Source of the DNA: a virus
DNA length: 30,128 bases
Direction: 5' to 3' (one strand)
Virus record (IMG/VR): IMGVR_UViG_3300037315_000018
Location: 1 to 30,128 of that record
Each line of letters opens with the position of its first letter. Positions within the stretch are counted from its first letter, which is position 1. The position numbers were made by a program, and so were the translations under genes. The notes beneath the pieces were generated by a model. That model was not told where the DNA came from and searched no databases. It worked only from the letters and a program-made list of their open reading frames with translations. Positions 1 to 19,062 of the stretch are shown one piece after another.

Positions 1-1
1 A

Positions 2-10
2 CTCCCGTGT
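2..10 (-). promoter_or_regulatory. ribosome binding site of a gene cut off by the left edge
   Basis: Read on the minus strand this is CACGGGAGT, the same ribosome binding site that precedes the start codons of the other leftward genes here. The upstream leader (positions 12-28) also matches the leader of the gene starting at 1650. The start codon itself must lie just outside the window, so the leftward gene series continues. Confidence 0.7.
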
Positions 11-41
11 CTGGTCTGGCGTGATAGGTCCGGCGCGACAG

Positions 42-107
42 CTAGGGCCGCCCGTTCGAGGGCCCGGGGAGCGAACCCCGCCGGACCCTCTAGGCGGGCG
101 GCCCTAG
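42..107 (-). other. long structured hairpin between leftward genes
   Basis: A perfect 13-bp inverted repeat (CTAGGGCCGCCCG at 42-54, its complement at 95-107) encloses about 40 nt. These can pair further: AGGG/CCCT, then CGGGG/CCCCG around a TTCGCT loop (about 69-85). It overlaps the stop codon of the gene ending at 104 and precedes the ribosome site of the next leftward gene. There is no T-run, so it is not a classical intrinsic terminator. A processing site, attenuator or protein-bound RNA are alternatives. Confidence 0.6.
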
Positions 108-328
108 AACCGTTCGCCCTCCCAGACCACGACTCCGCGCACGCATTCCGCGCGGCCCGCGTTCAAATCCGCCGCCATGGCGCACGCGGCCCCATAGGCG
201 ATTCCCCGCGCGGTCGACTCGATAGTCTCCCCGTCCGGGCCCGTGATAACGAACCCGGCGCCGGCCGGCTTGACGTTGAACCCGGCGGCCGGGGCCGCGT
301 TGGCGTTGACGTTCGCTTGCGTATTCAT
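104..328 (-). CDS. small hypothetical phage protein
   Basis: This 74-residue protein starts MNTQANVNANAA. I chose the ATG at 328 because ACGGGAGA lies at 338-345, the spacing seen for its neighbours; an in-frame ATG at 358 lacks such a site. After a low-complexity N/A-rich start comes a compact stretch (GFVITGPDGETIESTARGIAYGAA) resembling the short beta-strand plus helix pattern of small phage early proteins. No family is recognised. It is the last gene of its unit; box 377-398 lies upstream and the 42-107 hairpin downstream. Confidence 0.75.
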   Translation of the reverse strand: MNTQANVNANAAPAAGFNVKPAGAGFVITGPDGETIESTARGIAYGAACAMAADLNAGRAECVRGVVVWEGERF

Positions 329-376
329 GGCGCCTTGTCTCCCGTTGGCGTTGACCATGGCCCTAGGTTAGGGCCC

Positions 377-398
377 GATTCGTTGACGTTCCGTTAAT
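377..398 (-). promoter_or_regulatory. leftward promoter box, copy 1 (degenerate CtrA-like dyad)
   Basis: Sequence is GATTC-GTTGAC-N5-GTTAAT, the most degenerate of six copies, but it keeps the GATTC flank and the 11-bp period between half-sites. A -10-like hexamer (CTAACC on the minus strand, 366-371) lies 5 nt further, as in the other copies. The TAA stop of the gene ending at 394 is inside the GTTAAT half-site. A GGCCCT/AGGGCC hairpin (359-375) lies between the box and the ribosome site. Confidence 0.6.
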
Positions 399-789
399 CC
401 CGCTCGAATGCGCCCGGGACGTAGAACCGCCCGGCCGTTGCGCGGTCGCGCACGCTCAGATGGTCCCCGGGCTGGAGTCGCACGTCCGGCCGCCCGTCGG
501 ATTTGCGGGGCCGCACGAAACGCGGCCTTTTCATCTCAGACCGGGCCCGCATGTTTGACTCCACGGCCGCCCGTTCCGCCCGGGTTCCGACCGCGACCGC
601 GAACAAGGCGCGGCCCGGGGCGAGTCCCCATCCGGAAAGAAAGGAGTCGGTCGCGACCACGTATCCCATAGCGGGCCGCCCGTCTTCCCGCTTGTCATCC
701 GTGACGGGGGCGGGGAGGGGTTGCACGCCGCACGCGGCGGCCGGGTTATCCGTGACGCTGAATCCGTACCCTGTATCGCGATACGCCAT
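394..789 (-). CDS. hypothetical phage protein with FLSGWG and RSEMKR motifs
   Basis: A 131-residue soluble protein starting MAYRDTGYGF. Its ribosome site TCTCCCGT (797-804, plus-strand reading) supports the ATG at 789. The middle carries GYVVATDSFLSGWGLAPG (about residues 42-59) and the second half NMRARSEMKRPRFV, then DVRLQPGDHLSVRDR. I associate an ATDxFLSGWG ... RSEMK arrangement with an uncharacterised family of small phage and mobile-element proteins, from memory and not proven here. Role unknown. It follows the tiny gene 851-979 and is probably co-transcribed with it from box 1028-1049; a 9-bp hairpin separates the two. Confidence 0.8.
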   Translation of the reverse strand: MAYRDTGYGFSVTDNPAAACGVQPLPAPVTDDKREDGRPAMGYVVATDSFLSGWGLAPGRALFAVAVGTRAERAAVESNMRARSEMKRPRFVRPRKSDGRPDVRLQPGDHLSVRDRATAGRFYVPGAFERD

Positions 790-817
790 TGCCTATGTCT
801 CCCGTGGTTTGAGGGGA

Positions 818-843
818 GGGCCCGGGCTAGGCTACCCGGGCCC
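818..843 (-). other. intergenic GGGCCC hairpin
   Basis: A 9-bp inverted repeat, GGGCCCGGG/CCCGGGCCC (818-826 and 835-843), with an 8-nt loop, lies between the stop of the 42-residue gene (851) and the ribosome site of the gene starting at 789. No T-run follows. It is one of several GGGCCC-rich hairpins in leftward leaders. Confidence 0.5.
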
Positions 844-850
844 CGTAGTC

Positions 851-979
851 CTAGCGCATGGGGAAGCGGTCTGAGACCCATTCCGCGACCGCGACCGCGC
901 CCGTCGCCACAAGGGCGAAAAGGAATGGGGACAAAAGGAAACCCGCGACTATGAGCGCTCCCGCGTCCGCGTCTGTCAT
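851..979 (-). CDS. small membrane protein (42 aa)
   Basis: This reads MTDADAGALIVAGFLLSPFL then a further hydrophobic stretch and a short charged tail ending DRFPMR. One transmembrane segment is evident at about residues 8-32. The ATG at 979 has the standard site CACGGGAG at 988-995. It is the first gene after box 1028-1049. The size and layout (short acidic N-terminus, one membrane span, basic tail) resemble small phage inner-membrane proteins. A holin or superinfection-related role cannot be told apart from sequence alone. Confidence 0.7.
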   Translation of the reverse strand: MTDADAGALIVAGFLLSPFLFALVATGAVAVAEWVSDRFPMR

Positions 980-1027
980 GGTCTCGACTCCCGTGTCATC
1001 CGTTGAACATGAGTCGAGACTAGGCGG

Positions 1028-1049
1028 GATTCCTTAACAAACCGTTAAC
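1028..1049 (-). promoter_or_regulatory. leftward promoter box, copy 2 (TTAA-N7-TTAA next to GANTC)
   Basis: Sequence is GATTC-CTTAAC-N5-GTTAAC. On the minus strand the TAGTCT hexamer (1017-1022) lies 5 nt beyond the box. If that is the -10, the TTAA-N7-TTAA dyad covers about -38 to -24, overlapping the -35 region as in CtrA-activated promoters. The TAA stop of the gene ending at 1045 is embedded in the GTTAAC. The downstream start codon at 979 is about 50 nt away. Confidence 0.75.
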
Positions 1050-1650
1050 AGCGCATATCGAAAAGCGCGCCCGTGGCGTCCCCGCCATATACCCGCGCGT
1101 ACGCGTCCGCCGCGTCCCGCCGGATGCGCGGGAAGGCCGCCGCCAACGCGTCACGCTGGGACTCGTACATATCGGGGAGGCAACGGAACGACTCGCCCTT
1201 CCCGTATTGCGCAGACCATAGCTCCCGCCGCGCGTGGACGTTCCCAGCGATTCGCGTGGTATCCCAGCCGGCCGCCGCCGCAACTTCCCATTCGTGCGCG
1301 GGTTCCGTTTCGTGCGCCGGGCAATGCCTCAGACCGACTCCGGGGATATAGAGAATCGCCCGCGTCCCCGACTCCGAGACTCCAAGCGCGACGCCATACA
1401 GGCGGCCCCCGTCATCCGGACACGCGCGCGGCATGGCGGCCGGGGCCCCGTGCGGGATAGACGCTAGCAGGGCCGCGCAAGCGAACGTGTCGCCATACCG
1501 GGCCCGGGCGCACAAGTGAGCGCGCACGGCCGGCGCATCCGTGAAAATCGAACCGTGCGGAACGAGTCCATGGTCTGGCGTGATAGCGAATCCCTCCCCG
1601 TGCGCACGGTCGCGCTGGGCAGGGGTTAGGTCTGCAATCGGTCGCGCCAT
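1045..1650 (-). CDS. hypothetical phage protein (201 aa)
   Basis: Start chosen at 1650 (MARPIADLTPAQ) because TCTCCCGT (plus-strand reading) at 1659-1666 gives the usual ribosome site; the frame stays open to 1716 but without a site. The protein is soluble, rich in A, R and G, with no signal peptide. Segments such as GRLYGVALGVSESGTRAILYIPGVGLRHC (about residues 95-123) suggest a beta-rich core, followed by a helical C-terminal half. I do not recognise a family. It shares a transcription unit with the winged-helix gene upstream, separated by the hairpin 1687-1714. Confidence 0.8.
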   Translation of the reverse strand: MARPIADLTPAQRDRAHGEGFAITPDHGLVPHGSIFTDAPAVRAHLCARARYGDTFACAALLASIPHGAPAAMPRACPDDGGRLYGVALGVSESGTRAILYIPGVGLRHCPAHETEPAHEWEVAAAAGWDTTRIAGNVHARRELWSAQYGKGESFRCLPDMYESQRDALAAAFPRIRRDAADAYARVYGGDATGALFDMRC

Positions 1651-1686
1651 GGTCAATGTCTCCCGTGTCTGGCGTGATAGGTAGGC

Positions 1687-1714
1687 GGGGCCCCGGCCGG
1701 TCTCCCGGGGCCCC
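1687..1714 (-). other. intergenic GGGGCCCC hairpin
   Basis: A perfect 10-bp inverted repeat, GGGGCCCCGG/CCGGGGCCCC (1687-1696 and 1705-1714), with an 8-nt loop, sits between the stop at 1721 and the leader of the gene starting at 1650. No T-run follows. It may attenuate or protect the message. Confidence 0.5.
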
Positions 1715-1720
1715 ATGGGG

Positions 1721-3028
1721 TTAGGCGCCGGGGTTGTCCCGTGCGATCAAGCGCGGCGCCATGGTGGGGCGGTATTCATCCGGCCGAATATCCACGCGGG
1801 ACACGGAGTCGCCCTCGAATGCCAGCGTGACCAGATACCCGGAGTCGGGGCGATGCCCGATTATCAGGAACGCCGGCCGCCCGGTCTCCCCGGGTTCAAC
1901 GCCGCGCGCCTCCCGGGTATCCATGCCCGGCCGCGTGTCCGGCGCGTATTCAACCCATGCGAGTCGGCCGTACCCGATGCCCGCGAACGTCCGCGCGGCC
2001 TTGTCTCCCGGGGCCCATACGTCCGCCGCGCGGCGCACGTAGTCATGGGCCGCAAGGTAGGCGCCGGCCGGGCCGCCCGGGTATTCCTGCCCATACGGAG
2101 TCCCGTTGACTACCCATCGAGTCGCGAACGTCGACTCGCGATAGATGGGGCGGGAACCGGCCGGGCGGAACCCGGCGGGGCGATAGAGCAACCCCACGGG
2201 GCCGCCGGACGTGGTCAACTCCCCGGCCGCTAGGACAACATCGGGATTCAGCGCTTTGAGGGCCCGGGCAAGCGGGGCCATGTAGTCATGCGCGGCCCGG
2301 CCGCGTTCGATCAACGCAACCGCTTCCCGTTCGCTCATTCCCTTGTCATCCGCGAACCGCCCCGGGCTTAGGTAGTCATTCCACCATTCGCGGAACCCGG
2401 ACACGTCCGCCGGGTTGATCGCGGGCGCAGGGGCGGCCTTGAATGCCTCCCCGCTATAGGACTCGGGAGCGGACTCGTCACGCGCCGGCTTAGGCGCCGG
2501 GGCCGCGTCATCCGACTCGGGTTCCGGTTCCGGACGGTTCCGCACGCGGGCCGCCATGGAGTCAATCGCCTGAGACTCGGCGGACGTGGGGCCCTTGCGG
2601 CGGACGTACCACGCGCGACCATTCGAGACCGTCGCCAGATGCGCCTTGCTTTGTTCGATCAAGCCGGCGCGTTCCAGCGAGTCCAGGGTCCGGGCGATAT
2701 TCGGCCGGGCGATGTCCGCGACGGGAGTCCATTCGCTCCCGATGGAGTCCAGCGTCGCGCGTTGCGTGTCGGTTAGGTCCGCGCCGGCCGTTGCGCCGGT
2801 TTCCATATCGTATGCGGCGGGAAGCCGGCGCCATTCCGGCGCGCGACACGGGCCGCCATCGGAACCGCCGAACGTGCGGCGTTCCACAACCCCGGCTTTT
2901 TCGAGCGCGCCCAGCGTTGGGCAGATGTTCCGAGTCGTCCCGGCCGCGTTGGCAATGGTCGACTCTGTAACCCATTCGGTCCCGATATGGGCCAGAATGC
3001 GGCGTTGCGCGTCTGTCAGCTTGGGCAT
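1721..3028 (-). CDS. tandem winged-helix DNA-binding protein, unknown role
   Basis: At 435 residues this is the largest leftward product. The N-terminus holds two similar winged-helix-like units: residues 4-55 (LTDAQRRILAHIGTEW, then a recognition-helix region and GVVERR) and 85-130 (LTDTQRATLDSIGSEW, then AGLIEQ). Both open LTDxQRxxLxxIGxEW, so they look duplicated. A P/E/A-rich linker (about 155-215) leads to a C-terminal region of about 220 residues with no recognised fold. The ATG at 3028 is preceded by ACGGGAGA and by box 3081-3102. It is the best candidate for a phage transcriptional regulator or origin-binding protein in the leftward set; that role is inference. Confidence 0.85.
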   Translation of the reverse strand: MPKLTDAQRRILAHIGTEWVTESTIANAAGTTRNICPTLGALEKAGVVERRTFGGSDGGPCRAPEWRRLPAAYDMETGATAGADLTDTQRATLDSIGSEWTPVADIARPNIARTLDSLERAGLIEQSKAHLATVSNGRAWYVRRKGPTSAESQAIDSMAARVRNRPEPEPESDDAAPAPKPARDESAPESYSGEAFKAAPAPAINPADVSGFREWWNDYLSPGRFADDKGMSEREAVALIERGRAAHDYMAPLARALKALNPDVVLAAGELTTSGGPVGLLYRPAGFRPAGSRPIYRESTFATRWVVNGTPYGQEYPGGPAGAYLAAHDYVRRAADVWAPGDKAARTFAGIGYGRLAWVEYAPDTRPGMDTREARGVEPGETGRPAFLIIGHRPDSGYLVTLAFEGDSVSRVDIRPDEYRPTMAPRLIARDNPGA

Positions 3029-3080
3029 TGCCTAAATCTCCCGTGTCTGGCGTTGCCTCTATGATTCCCAGCCTAGGCGC

Positions 3081-3102
3081 GATTCCTTAACAAACCGTTA
3101 AC
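3081..3102 (-). promoter_or_regulatory. leftward promoter box, copy 3
   Basis: Sequence is GATTC-CTTAAC-N5-GTTAAC with TAGGCT on the minus strand (3070-3075) as the -10-like hexamer, again exactly 5 nt away. The TAA stop of the gene ending at 3098 is inside the GTTAAC. It would drive the genes starting at 3028 and 1650. Confidence 0.75.
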
Positions 3103-3316
3103 GCGCCGCGTCCGGGTAGACTCGGCGGGCGGAATGATTCCGCGTCCGCCCCGAACGCTCCCCGCGAACCGTCACGGTCGCGCCGGGCCCGCTTTCGATA
3201 ATCCGAGTCACGGTCCCGGGGAACCTATAGCCCGTCTGGGCAGATTCGACCGTCACGCGGTCCCCAAGGGCGATTCGGCCGTTGGGCGATTCGTACGAGT
3301 CGACATATTGCGCCAT
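3098..3316 (-). CDS. small SH3/KOW-like hypothetical protein (72 aa)
   Basis: The protein begins MAQYVDSYESPNGRIALGDR and continues as alternating hydrophobic strands (VTVESAQTGYRFPGTVTRII, then ATVTVRGE), a pattern like a small SH3/KOW-type beta-barrel, ending in a basic tail. The fold call is inference from the strand pattern. The ribosome site is CCGGGAGC at about 3329-3336. Only 3 nt separate it from the stop of the upstream gene, so the two are almost certainly translated from one message. The stop codon lies in promoter box copy 3. Confidence 0.75.
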   Translation of the reverse strand: MAQYVDSYESPNGRIALGDRVTVESAQTGYRFPGTVTRIIESGPGATVTVRGERSGRTRNHSARRVYPDAAR

Positions 3317-3319
3317 GGT

Positions 3320-3802
3320 CTAGCGCTCCCGGTTCGAGGGGGCGGAGTCCGTCGGATACAGACTCGCGAACGCGGCGGCCCAGATGTCCGCTTGTTCCTT
3401 TGCGGCGCGTTGAGTCTCCCGCTCGCATACCTGCCCGGACGCGTGGTCGCGGACGTGATACCCGGACGGGGTTTCGCGGCCCCGATAGACCGGGGAGATT
3501 GAAAACCGGCCGCCCCTGGAGTCGACGTGTCCGGACTCCGAACGTCCCCACGTGACAAGCGGGGCCGCGTCCGCCGCCGGTTCGAGCGTATGAAACGCGA
3601 ACGTCGCGCTAACCCGGCCGCCCCATTTTGAGTCGGGCATGTCTAGCGTGACGGTCGCGCGCGGCCCGCTAAGAGTCCCGCTCCCGTGGTATGTCGTGAC
3701 GGTTCCCAGCGTTCCGGCCGGGACGCGAGTCCCGTCGCCTAGGGTTAGGTCTACGTTCGTTTGAACCCGGCCGCCCGGGCGCGTGGTCATGGGGTTAATC
3801 AT
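3320..3802 (-). CDS. hypothetical beta-rich phage protein (160 aa)
   Basis: The product starts MINPMTTRPGGRVQTNVDLT. Residues 10-75 alternate strands and turns (GDGTRVPAGTLGTVTTYHG and ATVTLDMPDSKWGGRVSATF), compatible with an SH3-like barrel. Residues 80-150 include YRGRETPSGYHVRDHASG and a helix (QRAAKEQADIWAAAFASLY). No known family. The ATG at 3802 has ACGGGAGA upstream; MTTRPGG at residue 5 is an alternative start with poorer spacing. It is the middle gene of the unit driven by box 4032-4053. Confidence 0.75.
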   Translation of the reverse strand: MINPMTTRPGGRVQTNVDLTLGDGTRVPAGTLGTVTTYHGSGTLSGPRATVTLDMPDSKWGGRVSATFAFHTLEPAADAAPLVTWGRSESGHVDSRGGRFSISPVYRGRETPSGYHVRDHASGQVCERETQRAAKEQADIWAAAFASLYPTDSAPSNRER

Positions 3803-3831
3803 GGCGCCATATCTCCCGTGTCTGGCGTTGC

Positions 3832-3990
3832 CTAGATCAATTCGAGGGTTTCCCCGCCCCGCCGAACCGCTTCCATAAGCGCCGCGTGCGCGTTGGCGTT
3901 GCGCGCGTCTAGCTCCCGGTCTAGCTCCCGCATGAAAGCGCGGGCCGCGTCCGCCGGGGTTTGGTCTAGCGTCTGGCGTTGCGTGGTCAT
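3832..3990 (-). CDS. small helical hypothetical protein (52 aa)
   Basis: Starts MTTQRQTLDQTPADAARAFM and is almost entirely predicted helix, with many charged residues (RELDRELDARNANAHAALM). The start at 3990 is preferred because ACGGGAGT sits at 3998-4005 (minus-strand reading); an in-frame ATG at 4044 lies inside promoter box 4032-4053. It is the first gene of a three-gene unit. Function unknown; a small dimerising or protein-binding role would fit the helix but is not shown. Confidence 0.7.
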   Translation of the reverse strand: MTTQRQTLDQTPADAARAFMRELDRELDARNANAHAALMEAVRRGGETLELI

Positions 3991-4031
3991 GGTCTCGACT
4001 CCCGTTTGCTTGATGATTCGATTATGGCCCG

Positions 4032-4053
4032 GATTCGTTAACAAGGGGTTAAC
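4032..4053 (-). promoter_or_regulatory. leftward promoter box, copy 4
   Basis: Sequence is GATTC-GTTAAC-N5-GTTAAC, both half-sites perfect. The aligned hexamer on the minus strand is CATAAT (4021-4026), the best match of the set to a classical -10. The stop codon of the gene ending at 4049 lies in the outer GTTAAC. Downstream are the genes starting at 3990, 3802 and 3316. Confidence 0.78.
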
Positions 4054-4321
4054 GCGCGGCCCATGCTAGCAGAAAAAGGAACCCGCGCCCGGACCATGCG
4101 AGACCGAACCCCGCGACCGTCGCGGCGTAGGGGACCGCGACATATACCAGCGTCGCCGCGTCCGGGTTAGGCGCCTCGAACGGGGGCCATGCGAGCGAAT
4201 AGACCGCGAACCCCAAGCATGCGAGCGCGCCAAACGCGGCGGCCCCGGCGCCTAGGGCCGCGACGGGCCCCGTCACCATGCGGGCCAACTCGACTCCGAT
4301 ATTCCAGACCGTGCGAATCAT
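4049..4321 (-). CDS. small integral membrane protein (90 aa)
   Basis: Two or three hydrophobic segments are visible: about residues 17-46 (PVAALGAGAAAFGALACLGF onward), 57-75, and 79-89 near the C-terminus. A short amphipathic N-terminus (MIRTVWNIGVELARMV) precedes them. The ATG at 4321 has ACGGGAGC at about 4331-4338. It lies directly downstream of the 42-residue gene 4356-4484 and probably shares its promoter box 4533-4554. Size and topology fit a holin, but no lysin gene is nearby, so this is only one possibility. Confidence 0.75.
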   Translation of the reverse strand: MIRTVWNIGVELARMVTGPVAALGAGAAAFGALACLGFAVYSLAWPPFEAPNPDAATLVYVAVPYAATVAGFGLAWSGRGFLFLLAWAAR

Positions 4322-4355
4322 GGCGCTTTGCTCCCGTTGCCTTGCGCGTTGCCTG

Positions 4356-4484
4356 CTAGCGGCCCGTCACGGTCGCGACCGTATCCGCGACCATGCTTAG
4401 GGTCTCGAATGCGACCGCGATGTGAGGGCCCGCGAACGCCGCGACCATACCCGCCGCCGCTAGGACTAGAACGAAACCGCGCAT
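4356..4484 (-). CDS. tiny hydrophobic peptide (42 aa), possibly membrane or exported
   Basis: The product begins MRGFVLVLAAAGMVAAFAGP, which looks like a short basic start plus hydrophobic core, that is a signal or membrane anchor, and then HIAVAFETLSMVADTVATVTGR. The ATG at 4484 carries the standard site CACGGGAG at 4493-4500. Its leader is almost the same as that of the other 42-residue gene (851-979), both following a TAGTCT-type hexamer. Function unknown. Confidence 0.65.
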   Translation of the reverse strand: MRGFVLVLAAAGMVAAFAGPHIAVAFETLSMVADTVATVTGR

Positions 4485-4532
4485 TGCCTCGACTCCCGTG
4501 TCATCCGTTGAACGTGAATCCAGACTATCCCG

Positions 4533-4554
4533 GATTCCTTAACAGACCGTTAAC
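4533..4554 (-). promoter_or_regulatory. leftward promoter box, copy 5
   Basis: Sequence is GATTC-CTTAAC-N5-GTTAAC with minus-strand hexamer TAGTCT (4522-4527), the same hexamer and spacing as copy 2. The gene upstream ends at 4564, just outside the box. It would drive the two membrane-protein genes at 4484 and 4321. Confidence 0.75.
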
Positions 4555-4563
4555 GCGGGCGGC

Positions 4564-5079
4564 CTAGGCGACGATTCGCCCGTCGCGCCGAATCATGGTC
4601 ACGTGCGACCGCCCGGACGCGCCCGACTCGTACAGGGCGAACCACGCCCATTCCCGCGCTTCCCGCGCGTCATCCGCCCGGACATCGAACGAATGCGAGA
4701 CCATGCGCCCGGCGGCCGTTTCGATCCGGACATGCGCGCGATAGACCATGCCGGCCGCGTCATGCGTCCGCGCCTCTACATACTCGAACGCGTCGCCCAG
4801 CGTGTCCGCCACCATGCCGGCCGCGTCGCCGTAGCTTTCCCGGGCCGCCTGCCCATGGGCCACCATGCGCCCAGCCGCGCGCTTAATCCGGTTCGCCCGG
4901 GCATTCGCCCAGACCGTGGCCCATGCCTCATTCGTGCGCGCGACCGTCGCCTTGCGTGCCCGTTGCGCCCGCTTGTCCGCCACGAATAGGGCCGCCGCCG
5001 CGCCCGCGAACATGACAGACGCGACCGCGCAAAGGGCCGCCATGGTCAGAGGGGCGATAGTGTGAATCTGGTCAAGCAT
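4564..5079 (-). CDS. membrane-anchored protein with repeated AAG-MV motifs
   Basis: A 171-residue protein. Residues 11-34 form one transmembrane segment (TMAALCAVASVMFAGAAAAL), followed by a basic stretch (DKRAQRARK), so the body is probably cytoplasmic. The body is helical and contains four short repeats of the form AAG(R)MV at about residues 68, 86, 108 and 122. The C-terminal end (VTMIRRDGRIVA) looks like a beta hairpin. ACGGGAGA precedes the ATG at 5079. It is the first leftward gene beside the control region, so it should be among the first expressed. Function unknown. Confidence 0.8.
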   Translation of the reverse strand: MLDQIHTIAPLTMAALCAVASVMFAGAAAALFVADKRAQRARKATVARTNEAWATVWANARANRIKRAAGRMVAHGQAARESYGDAAGMVADTLGDAFEYVEARTHDAAGMVYRAHVRIETAAGRMVSHSFDVRADDAREAREWAWFALYESGASGRSHVTMIRRDGRIVA

Positions 5080-5167
5080 TGCTCTGGTCTCCCGTGCTAG
5101 CGATTCGTTGGCTTGCGGGCCCTACTGTCTCAGGGGCCCTGAATTGACGCAAGGGGAACGTCGCACG

Positions 5168-5189
5168 GATTCGTTAACAGAGCGTTAAC
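5168..5189 (-). promoter_or_regulatory. leftward promoter box, copy 6
   Basis: Sequence is GATTC-GTTAAC-N5-GTTAAC with both halves perfect. The aligned hexamer is weak (GACGTT), and the leader to the ATG at 5079 is about 90 nt and includes a GGGCCCT/AGGGGCCC hairpin (about 5117-5140). It lies at the edge of the control region and would drive the gene starting at 5079. Confidence 0.65.
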
Positions 5190-5380
5190 AAGGGCCCTCC
5201 CACGCGCGCACGATTCAGGGGACGGGATAGACGGGGAGACATGGCGGCCGGGCGGCCCTGATACCCGGGAAAAATCGCCTTTTTCTGTTAACGCATAGAG
5301 GATGCCTAAGGTTGCCCAGAGATGCCCGGCGGGGAAGTTGCTCGGATGCCCAGAGATGCCCGGGCAACTTTGGGCAACCT

Positions 5381-5398
5381 TAACCCCTTGATTTTCCC
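5381..5398 (+). repeat. AACCCCTTGATTTTCC repeat, copy A
   Basis: Matches 18 bp of copy C (5874-5896) in direct orientation and the core of copy B (5472-5494) inverted. It lies inside the iteron array. The AT-rich core differs strongly from the surrounding GC-rich DNA. Confidence 0.7.
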
Positions 5399-5471
5399 AG
5401 ACATTTAGATGCAATTTTGAGGATGCCCAGGATGCCCGGGCAACTTCGCCGGGCAACCTTTGGAAAGTTGA

Positions 5472-5494
5472 GGAAAATCAAGGGGTTATATAGG
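5472..5494 (-). repeat. 23-bp repeat, copy B (inverted)
   Basis: The exact reverse complement of 5874-5896 over 23 bp. It contains GGTTATATAGG, and TTGAGG begins 15 nt upstream of TATAGG, so a rightward promoter is possible. Together with copy A it makes an inverted pair about 90 bp apart. Confidence 0.75.
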
Positions 5495-5873
5495 TTGCCC
5501 GGATGCCCGCCCCCCGTCTCTGGGCAACCTGGGCAACCTTTCGGTTTGCCTACAGGTATGCCCGTATGCCCAGAGGGGAGCGCTATCGAATCGGGCAAGC
5601 TAGAACCGTGGCGATAGAGGGGAATACGTTAACAGACCGTGCGACGGGAGGGCCCGCGCCTTTGTTAACGAATCCCTAGGAATCCCGCCATGTTAACGCT
5701 AGGAAAAATTCGCTTAAAATCCACGCTAGCCCGGTCCCTCCCGTCTATGCCTCCCCTTGCCTGCCCTCCCGCTAGGTCTCCCGCCCCCCTTCCGCTCCCC
5801 TTCCGCTCCCCTCCGGAATCGGGGGCCCGCCGCCCCATAGCTCTAGGGTCCGCCCCCGGGAGACACATTGCAG

Positions 5874-5896
5874 CCTATATAACCCCTTGATTTTCC
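5874..5896 (+). repeat. 23-bp repeat, copy C
   Basis: Inverted partner of copy B about 380 bp away, with CCTATATAACCCC at its left end. It is too short to be an insertion-sequence end and has no transposase or target duplication between copies, so a protein-binding or promoter role is more likely. Confidence 0.75.
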
Positions 5897-6021
5897 CCGC
5901 TTGTTAACCCATTGCCCGGGGCCCTCGAACCCCTCGAATCCAGGGCATTCCGCCCCCATACAGGGGCCAAATCAGGCAAAATTGAGCTAAATTTGAGGGT
6001 TCCGGGGCCCTCCCCGGGAGG

Positions 6022-6338
6022 GTTAATCGGGAGTTAACAAGGGCCCGCCCCCGGCATGCGTTAACTAATGAGTAACCCTAAGCGCGCGGCCTTGTTAACC
6101 ATAGGGGAGGGGCCGTTAACAAATGAGTAACCATAACGCGCGCCCAAGAAACCTTAATCTTTTGTTAACCATGCCCGGGCGGCCCTCCCCGCTAGGGTTA
6201 ATCGTCTGTTAACGGGCCCCGCTTGCGTTAACTCCCGATTAACCCTCCCCCTCCCCATGCTCCCAGTATGGTTAACAAAGCGTTAACCTGCCCGCCTCGG
6301 CGGCCCCTCCCCGCCGTTAACCCTTTGTTAAGGTTAAC
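6022..6338. repeat. cluster of eight TTAA-N7-TTAA (CtrA-box-like) dyads
   Basis: Six exact TTAA-N7-TTAA dyads begin at 6023, 6154, 6198, 6228, 6272 and 6317, and two degenerate ones (second half GTAAC) at 6061 and 6116. Four more complete matches or near matches to TTAACCAT occur at 6095, 6127, 6165 and, inverted, 6268. Unlike the promoter boxes, these lack the GATTC flank. The set resembles an array for a cooperative DNA-binding protein. CtrA is the named candidate because its consensus is exactly TTAA-N7-TTAA. Confidence 0.75.
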
Positions 6339-6464
6339 AGCCTGCCTTTGTCTCAAATGCAATCTATTAAGGTTAACGCGAGGTATTTTAAGCGAATCCG
6401 ATTTTTAACCACCCCGGGGCGGGGTTCCCTCCCGCGCTAGAGCCGCCTAATTTTTGGAGAAACC

Positions 6465-6776
6465 TTAGACAGGAGGGCCCACGGGTATTCTAGTGCATTA
6501 TTTTGTTAACGTATCGCGCTATGAGGCGTAAACAGGAGGGTTCAAGGGTATCGGATCGCGTTTTCAGGTGAAAAATGGGCTCAAAATTTTGTTTTCGGTA
6601 TTTTCGGGGGTCGATTTCCCCTTGTGCTCAGACAGGAGGGCCCATACGTTAACAAACCGTGGCCGTAGCCGGATTTTCGCCCTGATTTCCACGTGTCTCC
6701 TGAGCCCGTAAGGGCGATTGAGCGCACGCGAGCGATTTAGAAGGGTGTTGACAGGAGGGACCACGGGGCATATCAC
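6465..6776 (+). promoter_or_regulatory. four GACAGGAGGG-type elements, putative rightward promoters
   Basis: The core (T)(T/A)(G/A)ACAGGAGGG(N)(C/T)CA occurs at 6465-6481, 6528-6544, 6628-6644 and 6748-6763, all on the plus strand. The last is a TTGACA with a 17-bp spacer to TATCAC (6771-6776); the first has TAGACA, 17 bp, TCTAGT (6489-6494). The conserved GGAGGG just inside the -35 is not part of an ordinary sigma-70 promoter and suggests an extra protein contact. They precede the first rightward gene. A ribosome site role is unlikely because no start codon follows at a suitable distance in the first three copies. Confidence 0.6.
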
Positions 6777-6797
6777 GGGGTTTCAAGGAGGCGAGCG

Positions 6798-7103
6798 ATG
6801 GCGTTAGAGCCGATGGACTGGGAATGGGTAGGCGCTCTGAAGCACTACCGGAAGGTGATCGAGGGTGAGACCTGCCGGATCACGAAGCTACGGGGAGTGG
6901 AGACGGATTTCCCGTGGAAGGTCCACATCGACGGCCTGGGCTCGGTGAACATCGAGAACCAGGGCCTAGCTCGGTCGATGAACGAGGCCAAGCGTATCGC
7001 TCGTGAGGCGGCCGAGGGCCGTCCGCGGAAGGGGATGGACAATCCCGAGTTCGCGAGAGCCCGTCGGCGCCATCAACGCCGTGTTCACAAACCACTCTGG
7101 TAG
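6798..7103 (+). CDS. hypothetical early phage protein (101 aa)
   Basis: First rightward gene. The ATG at 6798 has a strong AAGGAGG at 6785-6791. The product starts MALEPMDWEWVGALKHYRKV; residues 20-60 look like alternating strands (CRITKLRG, FPWKVHIDGLGSVNIENQ), followed by a helix (ARSMNEAKRIAREAAEG) and a very basic tail (RARRRHQRRVHKPLW). The basic tail would fit nucleic-acid binding. No family recognised. It follows the fourth GACAGGAGGG element by about 35 nt. Confidence 0.8.
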   Translation: MALEPMDWEWVGALKHYRKVIEGETCRITKLRGVETDFPWKVHIDGLGSVNIENQGLARSMNEAKRIAREAAEGRPRKGMDNPEFARARRRHQRRVHKPLW

Positions 7104-7116
7104 GGAGACGACAGGC

Positions 7117-7509
7117 ATGAAGGATATTCCGGATAGTGAATTTCGGATAGGGCGTATCATCGTCATCAGAAGTGGTTCCCGAGACCATGAATGCGCCGGC
7201 TACCGGATCGAGGAGACGACGGCGAAGCGGGTCTACGTCGGCGAGCTGGTGTGCGGCAGGGAGGCGATCTACCTGCCGGGCCAGGGCGGGCGCCGCAAGC
7301 CGAGTCGGCCCTACGTGAGCAAGACCGATGTGCTGGCGGTCGTCGACACCGTGGAGAAGTTCAACGCGGTGCAGATGGCTTTGAACAGCTACACCCGCGA
7401 GATCGGCGAGATCAACGCCGAGCGCTCTGAGCGGGCGCGTCGCGCGGGCAACCAGTTCGTCGACGAGCTGGACCGGATCGGCGTAGCGCACAACCGAAGC
7501 CGGCCCTGA
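7117..7509 (+). CDS. hypothetical phage protein (130 aa)
   Basis: The start MKDIPDSEFRIGRIIVIRSG at 7117 is supported by TAGGGAGACGAC at 7101-7112, a ribosome site repeated before several genes of this block; the open frame runs further upstream into the previous gene without one. Residues 8-80 are beta-rich and the C-terminal 50 residues form a helix with charged face (EKFNAVQMALNSYTREIGEI). This gives a small barrel plus helix layout. Function unknown. Confidence 0.8.
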   Translation: MKDIPDSEFRIGRIIVIRSGSRDHECAGYRIEETTAKRVYVGELVCGREAIYLPGQGGRRKPSRPYVSKTDVLAVVDTVEKFNAVQMALNSYTREIGEINAERSERARRAGNQFVDELDRIGVAHNRSRP

Positions 7510-7537
7510 CCACCAAACCATAGGGAGACGACAGAAG

Positions 7538-8239
7538 ATGGCACGATCCACGATCATGGCCGCGGAGGCGGCCGACCAGCAGAACCAGGAGAACGAGCGC
7601 AAGCGTGTCGCGCGGGAAGAGGAGGAGATTCTGTACCGCGACGCCAACGGCGACCCGCTCTCGCTCTTCAAGGCCATGCACCAGCTCGTGCTCAACACCC
7701 TGGTGCCGTACCGCGAGCGCGCGTTGTTGGCGGAAGGGCGCCTGAAGCGCTCGTACGACGCCATCGGGCAGGCGCTCACTGAGCAGCGGGAGCGCAACGA
7801 GGTCGATTTCGATGAGAAGTACGGCAAGCCGAACAACCGCGGCGGCCAGAACGGCTTCGTGATCTCGCCGGCCTGCATCGTCGACGTGGAGGTGGTGTGG
7901 GACAACGAGGCGGCGATCATCCGCTTCGGGGACCGGCGCATCGCTCCGCGGATCAAGGAGTGGCTGGACTGGCATCGCGAGGTCCTGCCGGCGCCGATGA
8001 GGCGACCCCTCTACCACAAGAAGCCCATCGCCGGCATGGGAGCTGTGAGGACCGACGACCGCGTGGTGATCCGCGTGAGCGATGATCGCAAAGAGGTCGT
8101 CATGAAGGTCGACGGCTTCGAGGATCGAGGCAATGAGACCTGGGTCCACGGCAAGGTGCAGAACGGCAAGACCGGGCGCTTCGCGAACTCGGCCATCGTT
8201 TCCGAGCGGCGCGTTCTGCGCTACGCTGATCCGGATTAG
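7538..8239 (+). CDS. hypothetical phage protein (233 aa) with charged helical N-terminus
   Basis: TAGGGAGACGAC (7521-7532) precedes the ATG. Residues 5-35 form a strongly charged, probably coiled helix (QQNQENERKRVAREEEEI); 40-95 continue helical; 105-175 contain FVISPACIVDVEVVWDNEAA and a tryptophan-rich segment (KEWLDWHREVLP); the C-terminus is beta-rich (DRVVIRVSDDRKEVVMKVDG), like a small barrel. No catalytic motif is visible and I do not recognise the family. It sits in a run of similarly spaced genes with the same ribosome site. Confidence 0.8.
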   Translation: MARSTIMAAEAADQQNQENERKRVAREEEEILYRDANGDPLSLFKAMHQLVLNTLVPYRERALLAEGRLKRSYDAIGQALTEQRERNEVDFDEKYGKPNNRGGQNGFVISPACIVDVEVVWDNEAAIIRFGDRRIAPRIKEWLDWHREVLPAPMRRPLYHKKPIAGMGAVRTDDRVVIRVSDDRKEVVMKVDGFEDRGNETWVHGKVQNGKTGRFANSAIVSERRVLRYADPD

Positions 8240-8255
8240 GCCCTAGGAGACGACC

Positions 8256-8459
8256 GTGGCGCGCAAGTCTGAGAGCGGAGTGTCTGTGGATAACGTGGAG
8301 GACCTCATCGACCTGATGGGGTCTCAGGTCGCCGTGGCTGATGCCTATGGTGTCAGTCGCGCCCACGTGTGCCAGTCACTCCGCCGGGCTCGCGCCAAGA
8401 AGCGCCGGCAGGCCGACGAGGGCGGAGACGAGGAGCTGAGCCTTGAAGACATCTTGTGA
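8256..8459 (+). CDS. small helix-turn-helix DNA-binding protein (67 aa)
   Basis: GTG start with TAGGAGACGACC just upstream. Residues 13-45 (VEDLIDLMGSQVAVADAYGV then SRAHVCQSLRRARAKK) form a helix-turn-helix like those of Cro/YdaS-type or resolvase-like HTH proteins: the A-x-A-YGVSRAHV turn and recognition helix followed by a basic arm. The C-terminus is acidic (EGGDEELSLEDIL). It is a plausible phage transcription regulator. The gene contains TGTGGATAA (8285-8293), a perfect DnaA-box sequence, perhaps by chance. The next gene overlaps its 3' end. Confidence 0.75.
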   Translation: MARKSESGVSVDNVEDLIDLMGSQVAVADAYGVSRAHVCQSLRRARAKKRRQADEGGDEELSLEDIL

Positions 8460-8646
8460 CCCAGACCTGTTCGGTGCGCCGAGGCGGTTGTCGGACATCG
8501 AGGTGCGTAAGGTGGTGGATCACGGCCACAGCACACTTCACTACATCGTGAGCTACCGCGGCCGGCGGATCGACTCCTCGCTGAAACGCAAGGTGGCGCT
8601 GAGGCGGCGCCGAGACTTCTACGCGAAGGCGTGCAAAGCCAAGTGA
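8443..8646 (+). CDS. small basic hypothetical protein with TTG start
   Basis: The 67-residue frame has no ATG near its start. TTG at 8443 has AGGAG at 8431-8435 with a 7-nt gap, which makes it the likely start. It overlaps the previous gene by 17 nt, suggesting coupling. The product has a strand-rich middle (STLHYIVSYRGRRIDSS) and a basic C-terminal helix (LKRKVALRRRRDFYAKACKA). A nucleic-acid-binding role is possible but unproven. Confidence 0.65.
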   Translation: MKTSCDPDLFGAPRRLSDIEVRKVVDHGHSTLHYIVSYRGRRIDSSLKRKVALRRRRDFYAKACKAK

Positions 8647-8652
8647 GGCGTC

Positions 8653-8778
8653 ATGAAACAGGCGCTAGCCTGGGCCAGCGGATTGGGAGCAACGTGGTTC
8701 ACGGAGCCGCTGCCTCAAGCCCTGCTTCTGGCCCTGGCTGCCGCCTGCGCCGCCTCGATCATCAACGACCGGTTCTAG
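8653..8778 (+). CDS. tiny membrane peptide (41 aa)
   Basis: The product is MKQALAWASGLGATWFTEPL, then an alanine/leucine membrane-like segment (ALLLALAAACAASII) and NDRF. A short GAGG lies 5 nt upstream. It begins 6 nt after the preceding stop and ends 11 nt before the next gene, so it fits the gap exactly, and its stop overlaps the TAGGGAGACG ribosome site of the next gene. One transmembrane helix at about residues 20-36. Function unknown. Confidence 0.6.
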   Translation: MKQALAWASGLGATWFTEPLPQALLLALAAACAASIINDRF

Positions 8779-8789
8779 GGAGACGAACC

Positions 8790-9506
8790 ATGAGCGACTT
8801 TGGGTATGGCTGGATGATCGGCGGAGGGATCGTGCTCTTCTTCGTGTTCATCGCATACTGCGCCTTCATCCTGTCCGGCCGGATCGGCGACGACATGGAC
8901 GGCGTGGGGGCGCACCGCCCGTTCGAGGGCTCGCCGTTCCTGCCGCCCGAGGACACCGACCGGCCGGAGCACGACGCCTTGGCCGACAAGATCGAGCGGG
9001 AGAAGTACGGGCAGTGTCCGGCCGAGACCCAACTGCCGCCTGCGCGCGAAAGCTCGGCGCAGAAGGCGGACATGGCCCAGGAGATCAAGGTCTACCGCCA
9101 GACCTTGGAGGCTCTCGCGCACTTTACGAGCGATCCATGGGCCGAGCACTTGGCGCGTAAGGTCTGGGACAAGCCCACGACTGAAACGGCCGAGTTCGCT
9201 ATCGCCCAGGCGCCGCGTATGAGCCCAGATCAGAAGAAGACCAAGCTGGTCGAGGCCAAGGGCAGCGCGCTTGTCGTGAAGGACGACAAGATCGGCCAGT
9301 ACGTCTTGACGGTCGGCCAGCAGATCAAGTGGTTCGACCGGGGAGGTGGTTTCCAGCGCGGCCGGATCGAGAGCTTCTACGAGAACGAGAACGCGGCCGA
9401 TGATTCGGATCGCTGGTACGTCCGTGTCCTCGATGAGCGCACTGGCAAACCGAGGACCGTGCTCTCGAACCGCGTCCAGCCGCTCACGAAGGACCTGTGG
9501 ACATGA
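8790..9506 (+). CDS. membrane-anchored hypothetical protein (238 aa)
   Basis: TAGGGAGACGAACC precedes the ATG at 8790. Residues 8-30 are a clear transmembrane helix (MIGGGIVLFFVFIAYCAFIL). A proline-rich, charged linker follows (about 45-100), a helical part (KVYRQTLEALAHFT), and a C-terminal beta-rich domain from about residue 170 (GQYVLTVGQQIKWFDRGG ... WYVRVLDER) resembling an SH3-like barrel. Likely inner-membrane with the body in the cytoplasm, as the residues after the helix include R and D without a signal cleavage site. The stop overlaps the next ATG. Confidence 0.8.
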   Translation: MSDFGYGWMIGGGIVLFFVFIAYCAFILSGRIGDDMDGVGAHRPFEGSPFLPPEDTDRPEHDALADKIEREKYGQCPAETQLPPARESSAQKADMAQEIKVYRQTLEALAHFTSDPWAEHLARKVWDKPTTETAEFAIAQAPRMSPDQKKTKLVEAKGSALVVKDDKIGQYVLTVGQQIKWFDRGGGFQRGRIESFYENENAADDSDRWYVRVLDERTGKPRTVLSNRVQPLTKDLWT

Positions 9507-9838
9507 TGCGCCGGATAGAGGTCTGGACCGGCACGGAGCACGTGACCGTCCCGATGTTCTGCGTGCCGATGCCGCGGACCTTCGAGAACCAGGGCTGGGC
9601 GAGGCACTACCGCCGGCTGCTCGAACTGCGGCAGTGGAACCGCAAGCTCTACAACGCCGTCGCCGAGCACCACCTGGGCGACCGAAGCCAGTTCCATCGG
9701 CCGCAGATCGGCCGGGGATGGCTGTACGGCAAGCGTCGCTACTGGCTCGTCTACCCGAACCGGGATCGGAAGGGCGCGACCGGCGCCTTCCCGACCTTCA
9801 TGGAAGCCTGCAACTGGTATCGAAACGGAGGCCGCTGA
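9503..9838 (+). CDS. hypothetical protein rich in W, Y and R (111 aa)
   Basis: The ATG at 9503 overlaps the previous stop (ATGA), typical translational coupling; the frame could also begin at GTG 9497. The product has PMPRTFENQGWARHYRRLLEL near residue 30 and GWLYGKRRYWLVYPNRDRKG near residue 75. The aromatic and arginine content suggests nucleic-acid or protein contacts, but no family is recognised. The next gene starts 1 nt after its stop. Confidence 0.75.
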   Translation: MMRRIEVWTGTEHVTVPMFCVPMPRTFENQGWARHYRRLLELRQWNRKLYNAVAEHHLGDRSQFHRPQIGRGWLYGKRRYWLVYPNRDRKGATGAFPTFMEACNWYRNGGR

Positions 9839-9839
9839 G

Positions 9840-10460
9840 ATGTCCCAGAAACCCGGATACGGCTACACCACGGAGCGCGTTTGCGACGGCTCCTTCTCTT
9901 TCCAGATGGCCCCAGGCGACATCGACAACTGGAAAGACAGCGGCAACCGGCGAGTCGAGGTCCAGTTCGAGAACTACGAGCTGGCGCACGGCTTCATGAC
10001 TTGGTTGAGGGACCATGGCGTTTCGGAGATCACGGAGAAGCCGCCGTATGCCAAGGTGCTCCCGACCTTCACCTTCGCGCCGGCCGACGTTCTTGCGGCC
10101 GTGAAGTTCCAGAACAGCGTCTACCACATCAGCTTCGGCAACGGGCAGGTCGCGGAGCAGTTCGAGCGGTTCTGCCAGGAGGCCGGCATCAACTTCGATG
10201 ACAGCAGTGGGAACGTCGAGAACACCGTCTCGAAGCTGAAGGAGGAGCTTCAGGGCATTCGCCAGACCAACGAAAGCCTGAAGGAACACGCGGTTCGCCT
10301 GAAAGAAGAGCGTGACCGCGCCCGGGAAGAGAAGGAGCGGATGGAAGACGGGGTCGGTCGCCTGGAAGATCGAATCGAGGCGTTGCAAGAGGCGCTGACG
10401 GACGCAGCGGAGCGCGAATTGCGCCTTAAACGGCGTCTCGATACCCAATCAAGGGGATGA
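9840..10460 (+). CDS. hypothetical protein with C-terminal coiled coil (206 aa)
   Basis: GGAGG at 9827-9831 precedes the ATG. Residues 1-115 form a globular, mixed domain (VEVQFENYELAHGFMTWLRD; FTFAPADVLAAVKFQNSVYH). From about residue 128 to the end heptad-like charged helix dominates (KLKEELQGIRQTNESLKEHA; LEDRIEALQEALTDAAEREL), which should form a coiled coil and oligomerise. No catalytic motif. It is the last gene before a 230-bp gap that carries a fresh promoter-like element. Confidence 0.8.
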   Translation: MSQKPGYGYTTERVCDGSFSFQMAPGDIDNWKDSGNRRVEVQFENYELAHGFMTWLRDHGVSEITEKPPYAKVLPTFTFAPADVLAAVKFQNSVYHISFGNGQVAEQFERFCQEAGINFDDSSGNVENTVSKLKEELQGIRQTNESLKEHAVRLKEERDRAREEKERMEDGVGRLEDRIEALQEALTDAAERELRLKRRLDTQSRG

Positions 10461-10469
10461 GAACACTCG

Positions 10470-10498
10470 TTGACAGGAGGGTCCAGTTACTTCAGATT
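10470..10498 (+). promoter_or_regulatory. fifth GACAGGAGGG element, putative promoter
   Basis: TTGACA (10470-10475), 17-bp spacer starting GGAGGG, then CAGATT (10493-10498). The first 16 bases match the four copies in the control region. It lies in the 10461-10689 gap directly upstream of the next gene, which supports a promoter role over a chance repeat. The rest of the gap shows no gene with a ribosome site. Confidence 0.6.
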
Positions 10499-10689
10499 CG
10501 GTTCTCTTGGACGAGGGCGTGGCGCCGGCCCCGCGTCCAGGTCGCCCCTCCCCGACCGCGACTCCGTCGGGATGTCTGCGGTCTCTGGGGCGCAGAGGCA
10601 AGGGGCTAAAGGTGAGGTCAGCCTTGCACCGACGGGTGTCTGAGGAGGCCCCCAGGCCGGCAACACTGAAACACGAAGGAGACGGACGG

Positions 10690-11124
10690 ATGCCTCGTAA
10701 GATGGAGTTCTTGGAAACCAGTGCTGTCGGTCTCGACGGCATCTTCAACACCTGTCGCCTGGGCCTGAAGTGGTTCGAGGCCGTCAGCGCCGGCACGCCG
10801 GTCGACCTTGTGGTGGTCGGCGAGGACGGCATGAAGCAGAAGTTCGGGCAGGCCACGGTCATCGGCAAGGTCTTTGGCCCGTACGAGGGCCTTGCGCCTC
10901 TGCATGCCGCTTACAACCATGCTGCCGCGCATGACGACATCAACGGCGCCGAAGACCCCGTGCAGCGGCTCGAAATCGCCATGATGCGGGCCTACGGCGA
11001 CCGCTTCAAGCCGAGCGAAGGCGTGGCGTTCGTCTACATGATCCGCACCGACACCAACGAAGCCGGCCGCCACGAGGCTCCGCAGATCGTCGGCCATGAT
11101 CCGGCCGCGGACAAGGACGACTAA
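10690..11124 (+). CDS. hypothetical protein, possibly ASCH/PUA-like (144 aa)
   Basis: The frame is open from 10507, but AAGGAG at 10676-10681 marks the ATG at 10690 (MPRKMEFLETSAVGLDGIF). Residues 20-65 (LKWFEAVSAGTPVDLVVVGE then KFGQATVIGKVFG) and the late segment AMMRAYGDRFKPSEGVAFVYMIR resemble the layout of ASCH/PUA-like barrels, in which a small barrel ends in a strand after RAYGxxF. This assignment is tentative. ASCH-type proteins usually bind RNA or modified nucleotides. It heads a second accessory unit. Confidence 0.75.
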   Translation: MPRKMEFLETSAVGLDGIFNTCRLGLKWFEAVSAGTPVDLVVVGEDGMKQKFGQATVIGKVFGPYEGLAPLHAAYNHAAAHDDINGAEDPVQRLEIAMMRAYGDRFKPSEGVAFVYMIRTDTNEAGRHEAPQIVGHDPAADKDD

Positions 11125-11126
11125 CC

Positions 11127-11309
11127 GTGAAGCTGGTAGAGAAAAAGGAGGGCTTCTCGCGCGAGCAGGAGAGCTGGGCGCGTGAGGCCCTCCAAGCCGG
11201 CCGTCCCCGGCGTCAAGTCGTGGACGGTCTTGTGGCAGACGGTGTGCAGAAGGACACCGCCCTGCGTCTGACCCGCCGAGTACGGGATCAGATCAAGACG
11301 GGAGGCTAG
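11127..11309 (+). CDS. small helical basic protein (60 aa)
   Basis: GTG start 2 nt after the previous stop, with AAGGA about 11 nt upstream. The sequence begins MKLVEKKEGFSREQESWARE and continues ALQAGRPRRQVVDGLVADGV, then DTALRLTRRVRDQI. This gives three short helices with a turn, much like a compact HTH, but no known family is clear. It lies tightly between its neighbours (1-2 nt gaps). Confidence 0.65.
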   Translation: MKLVEKKEGFSREQESWAREALQAGRPRRQVVDGLVADGVQKDTALRLTRRVRDQIKTGG

Positions 11310-11310
11310 G

Positions 11311-11754
11311 ATGGAAGCGCTTGAAGGTTTCGCTGCGGAATACGGCAGCGTGTTCCTGTGGATCGCCAGTACCGTTGTCGTACTGGGAGGCGTCGTTCTC
11401 TTCATGGCGATGTTCCTGGCGCTCGCAGAGCGGCGGGACCGGTTGAAGCGCTTCTCCCGGCCGCCGTGGATCGACAACCGCGTGTACCGCCACATCAAGA
11501 GCCGGCGGCTGTACCGGTTGCTCTACTCCAACGTCTATCTGGAAGCCGAGTATCCGGACACGCCGATGTGCCTGTACCAGAGCTTGGCGGACGGTACTCT
11601 CTGGACCCGACCGGCCAGGGAGTTCTTCGAGCCCGGACGATTCCGAGAGGTCGGTGAGTACAGCCTGCTCCTGGAAGACGCCCTGCGTGACCCAGGTAAG
11701 CAGCCGTACGATACGCCGAAGCTCGACGATCTGTCGTTCCGAGGCATGGCTTAA
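11311..11754 (+). CDS. membrane-anchored hypothetical protein (147 aa)
   Basis: GGGAGG lies upstream of the ATG at 11311. Residues 13-38 are a transmembrane helix (VFLWIASTVVVLGGVVLFMA), followed by a basic stretch (ERRDRLKRFSRPP) that should be cytoplasmic. The C-terminal 90 residues (KSRRLYRLLYSNVYLEAEYP; DGTLWTRPAREFFEPGRFRE) look like a small mixed domain. Function unknown. Confidence 0.78.
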   Translation: MEALEGFAAEYGSVFLWIASTVVVLGGVVLFMAMFLALAERRDRLKRFSRPPWIDNRVYRHIKSRRLYRLLYSNVYLEAEYPDTPMCLYQSLADGTLWTRPAREFFEPGRFREVGEYSLLLEDALRDPGKQPYDTPKLDDLSFRGMA

Positions 11755-11774
11755 CCAATAGGGAGACGACCCTG

Positions 11775-12851: not shown

Positions 12852-12854
12852 CTT

Positions 12855-12887
12855 GATGGCCCCTTAGCCTAAGCTGAGGGCGTCATC
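12855..12887 (+). terminator. hairpin after the accessory block, possible terminator
   Basis: CCCTTAGC-CTAA-GCTGAGGG (12861-12880) pairs over 8 bp with one G-T pair, extended by GATG/CATC. It begins 4 nt after the stop at 12851. No T-run follows, so termination is possible but not shown. It is the first of three hairpins in the spacer. Confidence 0.45.
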
Positions 12888-12962
12888 GTCGACTCCTCCG
12901 GGCCGGGTCTTGAGCGAGATGCTTGGGGCCCGGCCTACTCTTGTCTGGGTGCGGAAATTAGA

Positions 12963-15342: not shown

Positions 15343-15403
15343 GCCTGGACAGTACAGTCCGCATCGAGCATGATGCGTTGACCAAACGAGGAGCTGACGA
15401 ACG

Positions 15404-18035: not shown

Positions 18036-18071
18036 GCCCTTCACCGATACGTTAACTCATGAGCAGCCTTA

Positions 18072-18112
18072 CCGGGTGATCCGGGAGGCTCAACCCACGC
18101 CGGGTGATCCGG
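18072..18112 (+). repeat. paired CCGGGTGATCCGG repeats before the scaffold gene
   Basis: The 13-mer CCGGGTGATCCGG occurs twice exactly (18072-18084 and 18100-18112), 28 bp apart, and CCGGGTGATCCG recurs at about 19109-19120 before the capsid gene. Each can form a CCGG/CCGG mini-hairpin with a GTGAT loop. They lie in the leaders of two highly expressed head genes. Confidence 0.5.
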
Positions 18113-18130
18113 CCCAGAGGAGCGATGACA

Positions 18131-19003: not shown

Positions 19004-19028
19004 TTAGCTGCTTGACTTCCCTGACCTG

Positions 19029-19050: not shown

Positions 19051-19062
19051 ACATCCGGTGCT

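Follow-up and report, generated by a model that had tools for sequence, protein, structure and literature searches.

CtrA is the essential regulator of cell-cycle timing in alphaproteobacteria. Control of phage genes by CtrA was shown in 2022 for the Brevundimonas phage Delta and for phiCbK-like phages (Mascolo 2022, PMC9437464). CtrA binds and represses the small gene DELTA_120 in an intergenic gap of Delta, and phosphorylated CtrA binds the gp005 and gp018 promoters of phiCbK in electrophoretic mobility shift assays, with binding lost on mutation and CtrA-dependent activities of >29-fold and 5-fold in C. crescentus (PMC9437464). On the Caulobacter chromosome, an activating full CtrA site lies at -39 of the ctrA P2 promoter (PMC4287350), and CtrA sites at the origin Cori silence replication (cited in PMC9437464). 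Here, we analyzed a viral stretch of 30,128 bp, referred to as the window, which is the entire IMG/VR record IMGVR_UViG_3300037315_000018, linear and probably a fragment. A first-pass annotation of its sequence had likened the TTAA-N7-TTAA dyads close to its left end to the CtrA consensus and had left open whether such an arrangement was known from a related phage, a question answered by the 2022 work. The window probably comes from a phage of this known kind (CtrA-wired 'LPEG' phages), and its lineage lies closer to Pseudomonas phage YuA. We are confident in reading its dyads as host CtrA sites that most likely activate the leftward genes, with an array in the adjoining gap that more likely mediates repression or forms a nucleoprotein complex.

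Exactly 11 TTAA-N7-TTAA dyads were counted in the record (starts at 1034, 3087, 4038, 4539, 5174, 6023, 6154, 6198, 6228, 6272 and 6317). All are found within 1034-6331 and none in 6798-30128, a concentration characteristic of LPEG phages. One-mismatch copies are present at 383, 6061 and 6116, and another at 21774 outside the left region. This is in good agreement with the eleven exact copies and several near matches that had been noted within 6.4 kb, and the accompanying estimate of well under one copy by chance is borne out by dinucleotide shuffles, which gave means of 0.02 dyads for positions 1-6797 (maximum 1) and 0.05 for the gap at 5080-6797. When spacings of 0 to 30 were compared, N7 alone was enriched with 11 copies, every other spacing yielding three or fewer, and the TTAA-N6, TTAA-N8, AATT-N7-AATT and TATA-N7-TATA versions each had zero copies in the window. 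The dyads had also been described as almost entirely non-coding. Eight of the 11 are indeed fully intergenic, six of them clustered in the gap, while those at 1034, 3087 and 4038 reach into the upstream leftward gene by no more than its final 4 bp (stop codon), an intergenic and promoter-associated location again as in LPEG phages.

An artefact would be the simplest alternative, either through chance or low complexity in AT-rich intergenic DNA or through a chimeric contig. The word composition of the left 6.7 kb does differ from the rest, and the left 5.1 kb shows a sharp contrast to the remainder in both GATC (1.2 vs 7.6 per kb) and CTAG (4.7 vs 0.6 per kb). However, chance is excluded by the shuffles, a drop in GATC density also marks the phiCbK terminal repeat, and an independent 93-kb relative (G003) has the same order of a GANTC-rich leftward module, a gap with TTAA dyads and a rightward module with terminase. 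A chimeric contig was rejected on the basis of this shared layout, and we consider an artefact of any of these types extremely improbable.

Five exact boxes and the degenerate copy at 383 each lie ca. 45-95 bp ahead of one leftward start on the minus strand, with distances taken from the start codons at 328, 979, 3028, 3990, 4484 and 5079:

104-5079, minus strand: leftward module of 11 small genes
5080-6797, no strand: intergenic gap of 1.7 kb between leftward and rightward modules
383-397, minus strand: degenerate box TTAACGGAACGTCAA (one mismatch) abutted by GAATC, with TAACCT 12 bp on, preceding gene 104-328
1034-1048, minus strand: box TTAACGGTTTGTTAA with GAATC, TAGTCT 11 bp on and GACTC, ahead of 851-979; matrix rank 2
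3087-3101, minus strand: box TTAACGGTTTGTTAA with GAATC, TAGGCT 11 bp on and GAATC, ahead of 1721-3028; matrix rank 1
4038-4052, minus strand: box TTAACCCCTTGTTAA with GAATC, CATAAT 11 bp on and GAATC, ahead of 3832-3990; matrix rank 4
4539-4553, minus strand: box TTAACGGTCTGTTAA with GAATC, TAGTCT 11 bp on and GATTC, ahead of 4356-4484; matrix rank 3
5174-5188, minus strand: box TTAACGCTCTGTTAA with abutting GAATC, ahead of 4564-5079; matrix rank 9

Along the minus strand, the box is followed by [GC]GAATC at all six promoters and then by a -10-like element at five (TAGTCT, TAGGCT, CATAAT, TAGTCT and TAACCT). The boxes had been said to overlap the -35 region of leftward genes. Their placement ahead of the starts holds for all six, whereas a -10 at 11-13 bp accompanies four of the five exact boxes, each at offset 11 (one being CATAAT), and the degenerate copy at offset 12.

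Three lines of evidence support the proposed CtrA identity. First, boxes 1034 and 3087 read TTAACGGTTTGTTAA on the promoter strand and are identical at 15/15 positions to the sites preceding gp005 and gp018 in phiCbK. When the viral collection was searched for this 15-mer, 63 stretches were returned, and those that were dyad-rich in high-GC DNA were phiCbK-like Caulobacter phages. CcrPW promoters read TTAACNNNTTGTTAAGAAATAGNNNNTANNNT, with a step to the -10 of also 11 bp. Second, a promoter matrix built from 11 phiCbK and CcrPW promoters, using no window data, placed boxes 3087, 1034, 4539 and 4038 at ranks 1-4 of the window, each of them on the minus strand with an offset of 11. Their scores of 34.1-24.9 compare with a mean of 11.9 and a maximum of 15.7 for the best match in shuffled windows. 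Such a scan had been suggested as a check by the first-pass annotation. Third, the predicted -10 puts the 5' end of the box near -38. Taken from sequence comparison, the CtrA identity of the boxes is thus very probable, and activation would be the likelier effect at the leftward boxes because their position matches that of the activating Caulobacter site.

Several observations weigh against this interpretation. The fifth exact box, at 5174, has no clear -10 at 11-13 bp, and the 11 sites behind the matrix come from two related phages. By capsid, the closest isolated relatives infect Pseudomonas, Bordetella and Sphaerotilus, which are not alphaproteobacteria. Sulfitobacter phage M39 and Sphingomonas phage Kharn, which have related terminases and alphaproteobacterial hosts, contain no dyads, and an alphaproteobacterial host therefore does not imply such sites. 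In the AT-rich gap DNA of G003, the dyads are in modest excess (5 vs 1.34 expected). Further, the TTAAC-N5-GTTAA core is an inverted repeat that a phage helix-turn-helix (HTH) dimer could bind. In favour of the CtrA reading, no dyads were seen in the examined stretches of YuA and Bordetella phage FP1, relatives with non-alphaproteobacterial hosts, and both Delta and G003 have dyads in a gap at the corresponding place.

The inverted repeat leads to a second alternative, namely that the boxes are operators of a phage HTH regulator, scattered like the stoperators of certain temperate phages, with a fortuitous likeness to CtrA sites. A candidate would be the 435-residue leftward protein encoded at 1721-3028, which has two weak winged-helix/HTH segments and a box in its own promoter. 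Against such a regulator, two boxes match CtrA-bound phiCbK sites at all 15 positions, the geometry from box to -10 recurs in the CtrA promoters of unrelated phages, and some gap sites are, as CtrA sites can be, not inverted repeats (TTAATC...GTTAAC). We consider this alternative unlikely. It had also been suggested that a phage protein mimicking CtrA might act at the boxes, which found no support, as neither an OmpR-type DNA-binding domain (PF00486) nor GcrA (PF07750) was detected in the record, itself a fragment, or in three relatives including the 93-kb one.

Compared with the known systems, the proposed CtrA sites of the window combine features of several. Delta (vB_BsubS-Delta, MN862068) similarly has a YuA-like capsid and terminase and a 1,312-bp gap between leftward and structural modules, which contains 30 TTAA and many TTAA-N7-TTAA. 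In contrast to the window, its dyads are confined to the gap in the parts examined, with none ahead of single leftward genes, GANTC does not abut them and is strongly avoided, and Delta is more distant in sequence (capsid 56%, terminase 36% identity), the window being closer to YuA. Box sequence and -10 spacing are shared with phiCbK, Karma and CcrPW, and phiCbK-like phages also carry strings of small genes of unknown function in units headed by a CtrA box. Unlike the window, they belong to another genome lineage (capsid ca. 25% identical), the sites of phiCbK, Karma and CcrPW have no abutting GANTC, and the CtrA-activated sites lie in direct terminal repeats, not in a gap and its leftward module. 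CtrA-activated Caulobacter promoters such as ctrA P2 resemble those described here in having a TTAA-N7-TTAA whose 5' end lies near -39 (PMC4287350), but are chromosomal, while the six promoters of the window are in a phage and all carry GAATC between -35 and -10. The data fit both an independent gain of CtrA sites in this lineage and a gain at its base with turnover.

The gap holds a further array of dyads and, beside it, a set of short repeats:

6023-6331, no strand: cluster of six exact dyads (6023, 6154, 6198, 6228, 6272, 6317) and two one-mismatch copies (6061, 6116)
5310-5571 (262 bp), both orientations: iteron-like array with 16 copies of RKWTGCCC / GGGCAAC[CT]

Within the cluster, distances of 11 or 33-34 bp, near whole helical turns, recur between successive TTAA half-sites. 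The first rightward gene is 470-775 bp away from the cluster, and the closest leftward start ca. 950 bp. Few gap sites are followed by a -10 at the expected spacing, which makes repression or a larger complex more likely here than activation. A by-eye search for a small gap open reading frame (ORF) resembling DELTA_120 found none with a convincing leader. The iteron-like repeat is absent from positions 1-5000 and occurs eight times in 7000-30128. It may form a replication origin and, by analogy to the Caulobacter chromosome origin, this origin could be held off by CtrA. Like Cori, the window would thus have a cluster of CtrA sites at a possible origin, although no DnaA box (TTATCCACA) is present in the gap and the origin role there is only putative.

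It is accordingly conceivable that the cluster mainly silences a phage replication origin rather than controlling promoters. The 16 repeats adjoin the cluster, which is far from genes on both sides and has mostly sites without a good -10 alongside. On the other hand, no replication initiator was recognized in the fragment, and a promoter in such a gap is repressed in Delta (PMC9437464). We regard origin silencing as the main function of the cluster as possible but doubtful, and it can be compatible with promoter control of the leftward genes. Two other repeat families were observed in the gap. A 17-bp inverted repeat (TAACCCCTTGATTTTCC) occurs at 5381, inverted at 5472 and again at 5880, and a 23-bp repeat around ACAGGAGGG has four rightward copies at 6466, 6529, 6629 and 6748. 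The copy at 6748 reads TTGACA-N17-TATCAC, and the four copies are candidate rightward promoters or operators before gene 6798.

A second signal concerns GANTC, the site of the methyltransferase CcrM. At all six leftward promoters, the degenerate copy included, GAATC abuts the box and thus falls between -35 and -10, a placement that is a feature of promoters controlled by GcrA and CcrM. In four of the six, a second GANTC follows 17-18 bp on. None of the 28 exact dyads of Delta, Leszy, G003, CcrPW and Karma has an abutting GANTC, CcrPW having GAAATAG in the matching place. All six boxes may have been copied from one ancestor, and GAATC may represent a variant spacer sequence and not a methylation signal. 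The composite GATTC-N-TTAAC-N5-GTTAA was matched in 37 stretches, once in each, mostly AT-rich and at chance level.

Beyond the promoters, the leftward coding DNA (104-5079) contains 58 GANTC, chiefly GAGTC and GACTC, vs 28.4 +/- 2.7 expected from synonymous-codon shuffling, while the rightward genes contain 49 vs 48.9. The same procedure gave 81 vs 49.5 for G003, where the leftward module compared spans positions 4142-12958. These counts are approximate since ORFs were called mechanically and one (3832-4044) takes in a box region. When 5-mers were ranked by over-representation, the two leading words of the leftward module in the window were GACTC and GAGTC, which came third and first in that of G003; among words enriched in both modules, whose genes are unalignable, these two again led. 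GATC is depleted in both modules (z -3.2). GANTC is avoided in Delta and Leszy (observed/expected 0.2 each) and in the phiCbK and CcrPW cores (0.60 and 0.81), and is not avoided in the phiCbK terminal repeat (1.2) and the CcrPW CtrA segment (1.36). Two side observations were made. Coding DNA of Kharn (43,408 bp) shows near-total avoidance of both GANTC (0, expected 79) and GATC (2, expected 135), and at a second spot in G003 (41782-47500) a TTAA-N7-TTAA dyad precedes minus-strand genes in a GANTC-rich stretch (13 vs 4.5 expected). N6/N4 methyltransferase families were not detected in the record or three relatives.

In the literature searched, we found no paper reporting the box-abutting GAATC or the leftward excess of GAGTC and GACTC, and both appear to be undescribed. 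Together they raise the prospect that the CtrA box and CcrM sites, in promoters and throughout the module, jointly gate the leftward genes while the CtrA cluster silences an iteron origin. We offer this two-signal model tentatively and judge it rather unlikely.

The lineage of the phage is fixed by a structural module in the rightward part of the window:

13687-29704, plus strand: YuA-like structural module
13687-15342, plus strand: terminase large subunit
15404-16945, plus strand: portal (DUF4055)
19219-20187, plus strand: major capsid
27191-29704, plus strand: tape measure

The rightward module also holds tail genes and a DUF2460 protein. The order of terminase large subunit, portal, capsid and tail genes is that of YuA (Mesyanzhinovviridae), with identities of 76% for the capsid, 58% for a tail protein and 50% for the terminase, and metagenomic relatives reach 62-69% terminase identity. 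A scan of genome contigs for the host brought up only contigs from metagenome-assembled genomes of mixed taxa. We infer an alphaproteobacterial host.

The 11 leftward genes start at 328, 789, 979, 1650, 3028, 3316, 3802, 3990, 4321, 4484 and 5079. Apart from the HTH-like segments in 1721-3028 and a match of 394-789 to phrog_5423, a family of unknown function, their proteins gave no informative family match. No relatives of the proteins encoded at 1721-3028, 1045-1647 and 4564-5079 were found among viral contigs, nor any of 1721-3028 among isolated phages. Genes 851-979 and 4356-4484 encode two hydrophobic 42-residue proteins, probably membrane proteins, each directly behind a CtrA box. Every leftward gene has a CGGGAG leader, mostly ACGGGAG, immediately 5' of the start codon. 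ACGGGAG was considered as a host marker and dropped, because it is specific to the leftward module, with 13 copies in 5.2 kb vs 3 in 23 kb, and is not shared with Caulobacter phages.

In conclusion, the phage probably switches its leftward genes on or off with the host cell cycle. In the mechanism we propose, one box would cover the -35 of each of six small transcription units, conforming to the phiCbK/CcrPW promoter class TTAACNNYYTGTTAA-N11-TANNNT. Phosphorylated CtrA would most likely activate these units, so that leftward transcription would be strong only while the host holds active CtrA. At the six to eight close-packed sites of the gap, CtrA would more likely act as a repressor or build a larger nucleoprotein complex across the divergent control region, and infection may thereby be timed to the host cell cycle ('lytic deferment'). 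This would add a lineage close to the Pseudomonas YuA phages to those with CtrA control, and would unite two modes in one genome, the gap cluster known from Delta and the promoter cassettes known from phiCbK. The leftward promoters are suited to the existing C. crescentus assay, and the excess of GAGTC and GACTC, reproduced in a second phage, is a concrete pointer to a possible role of CcrM methylation in the control regions of phages.

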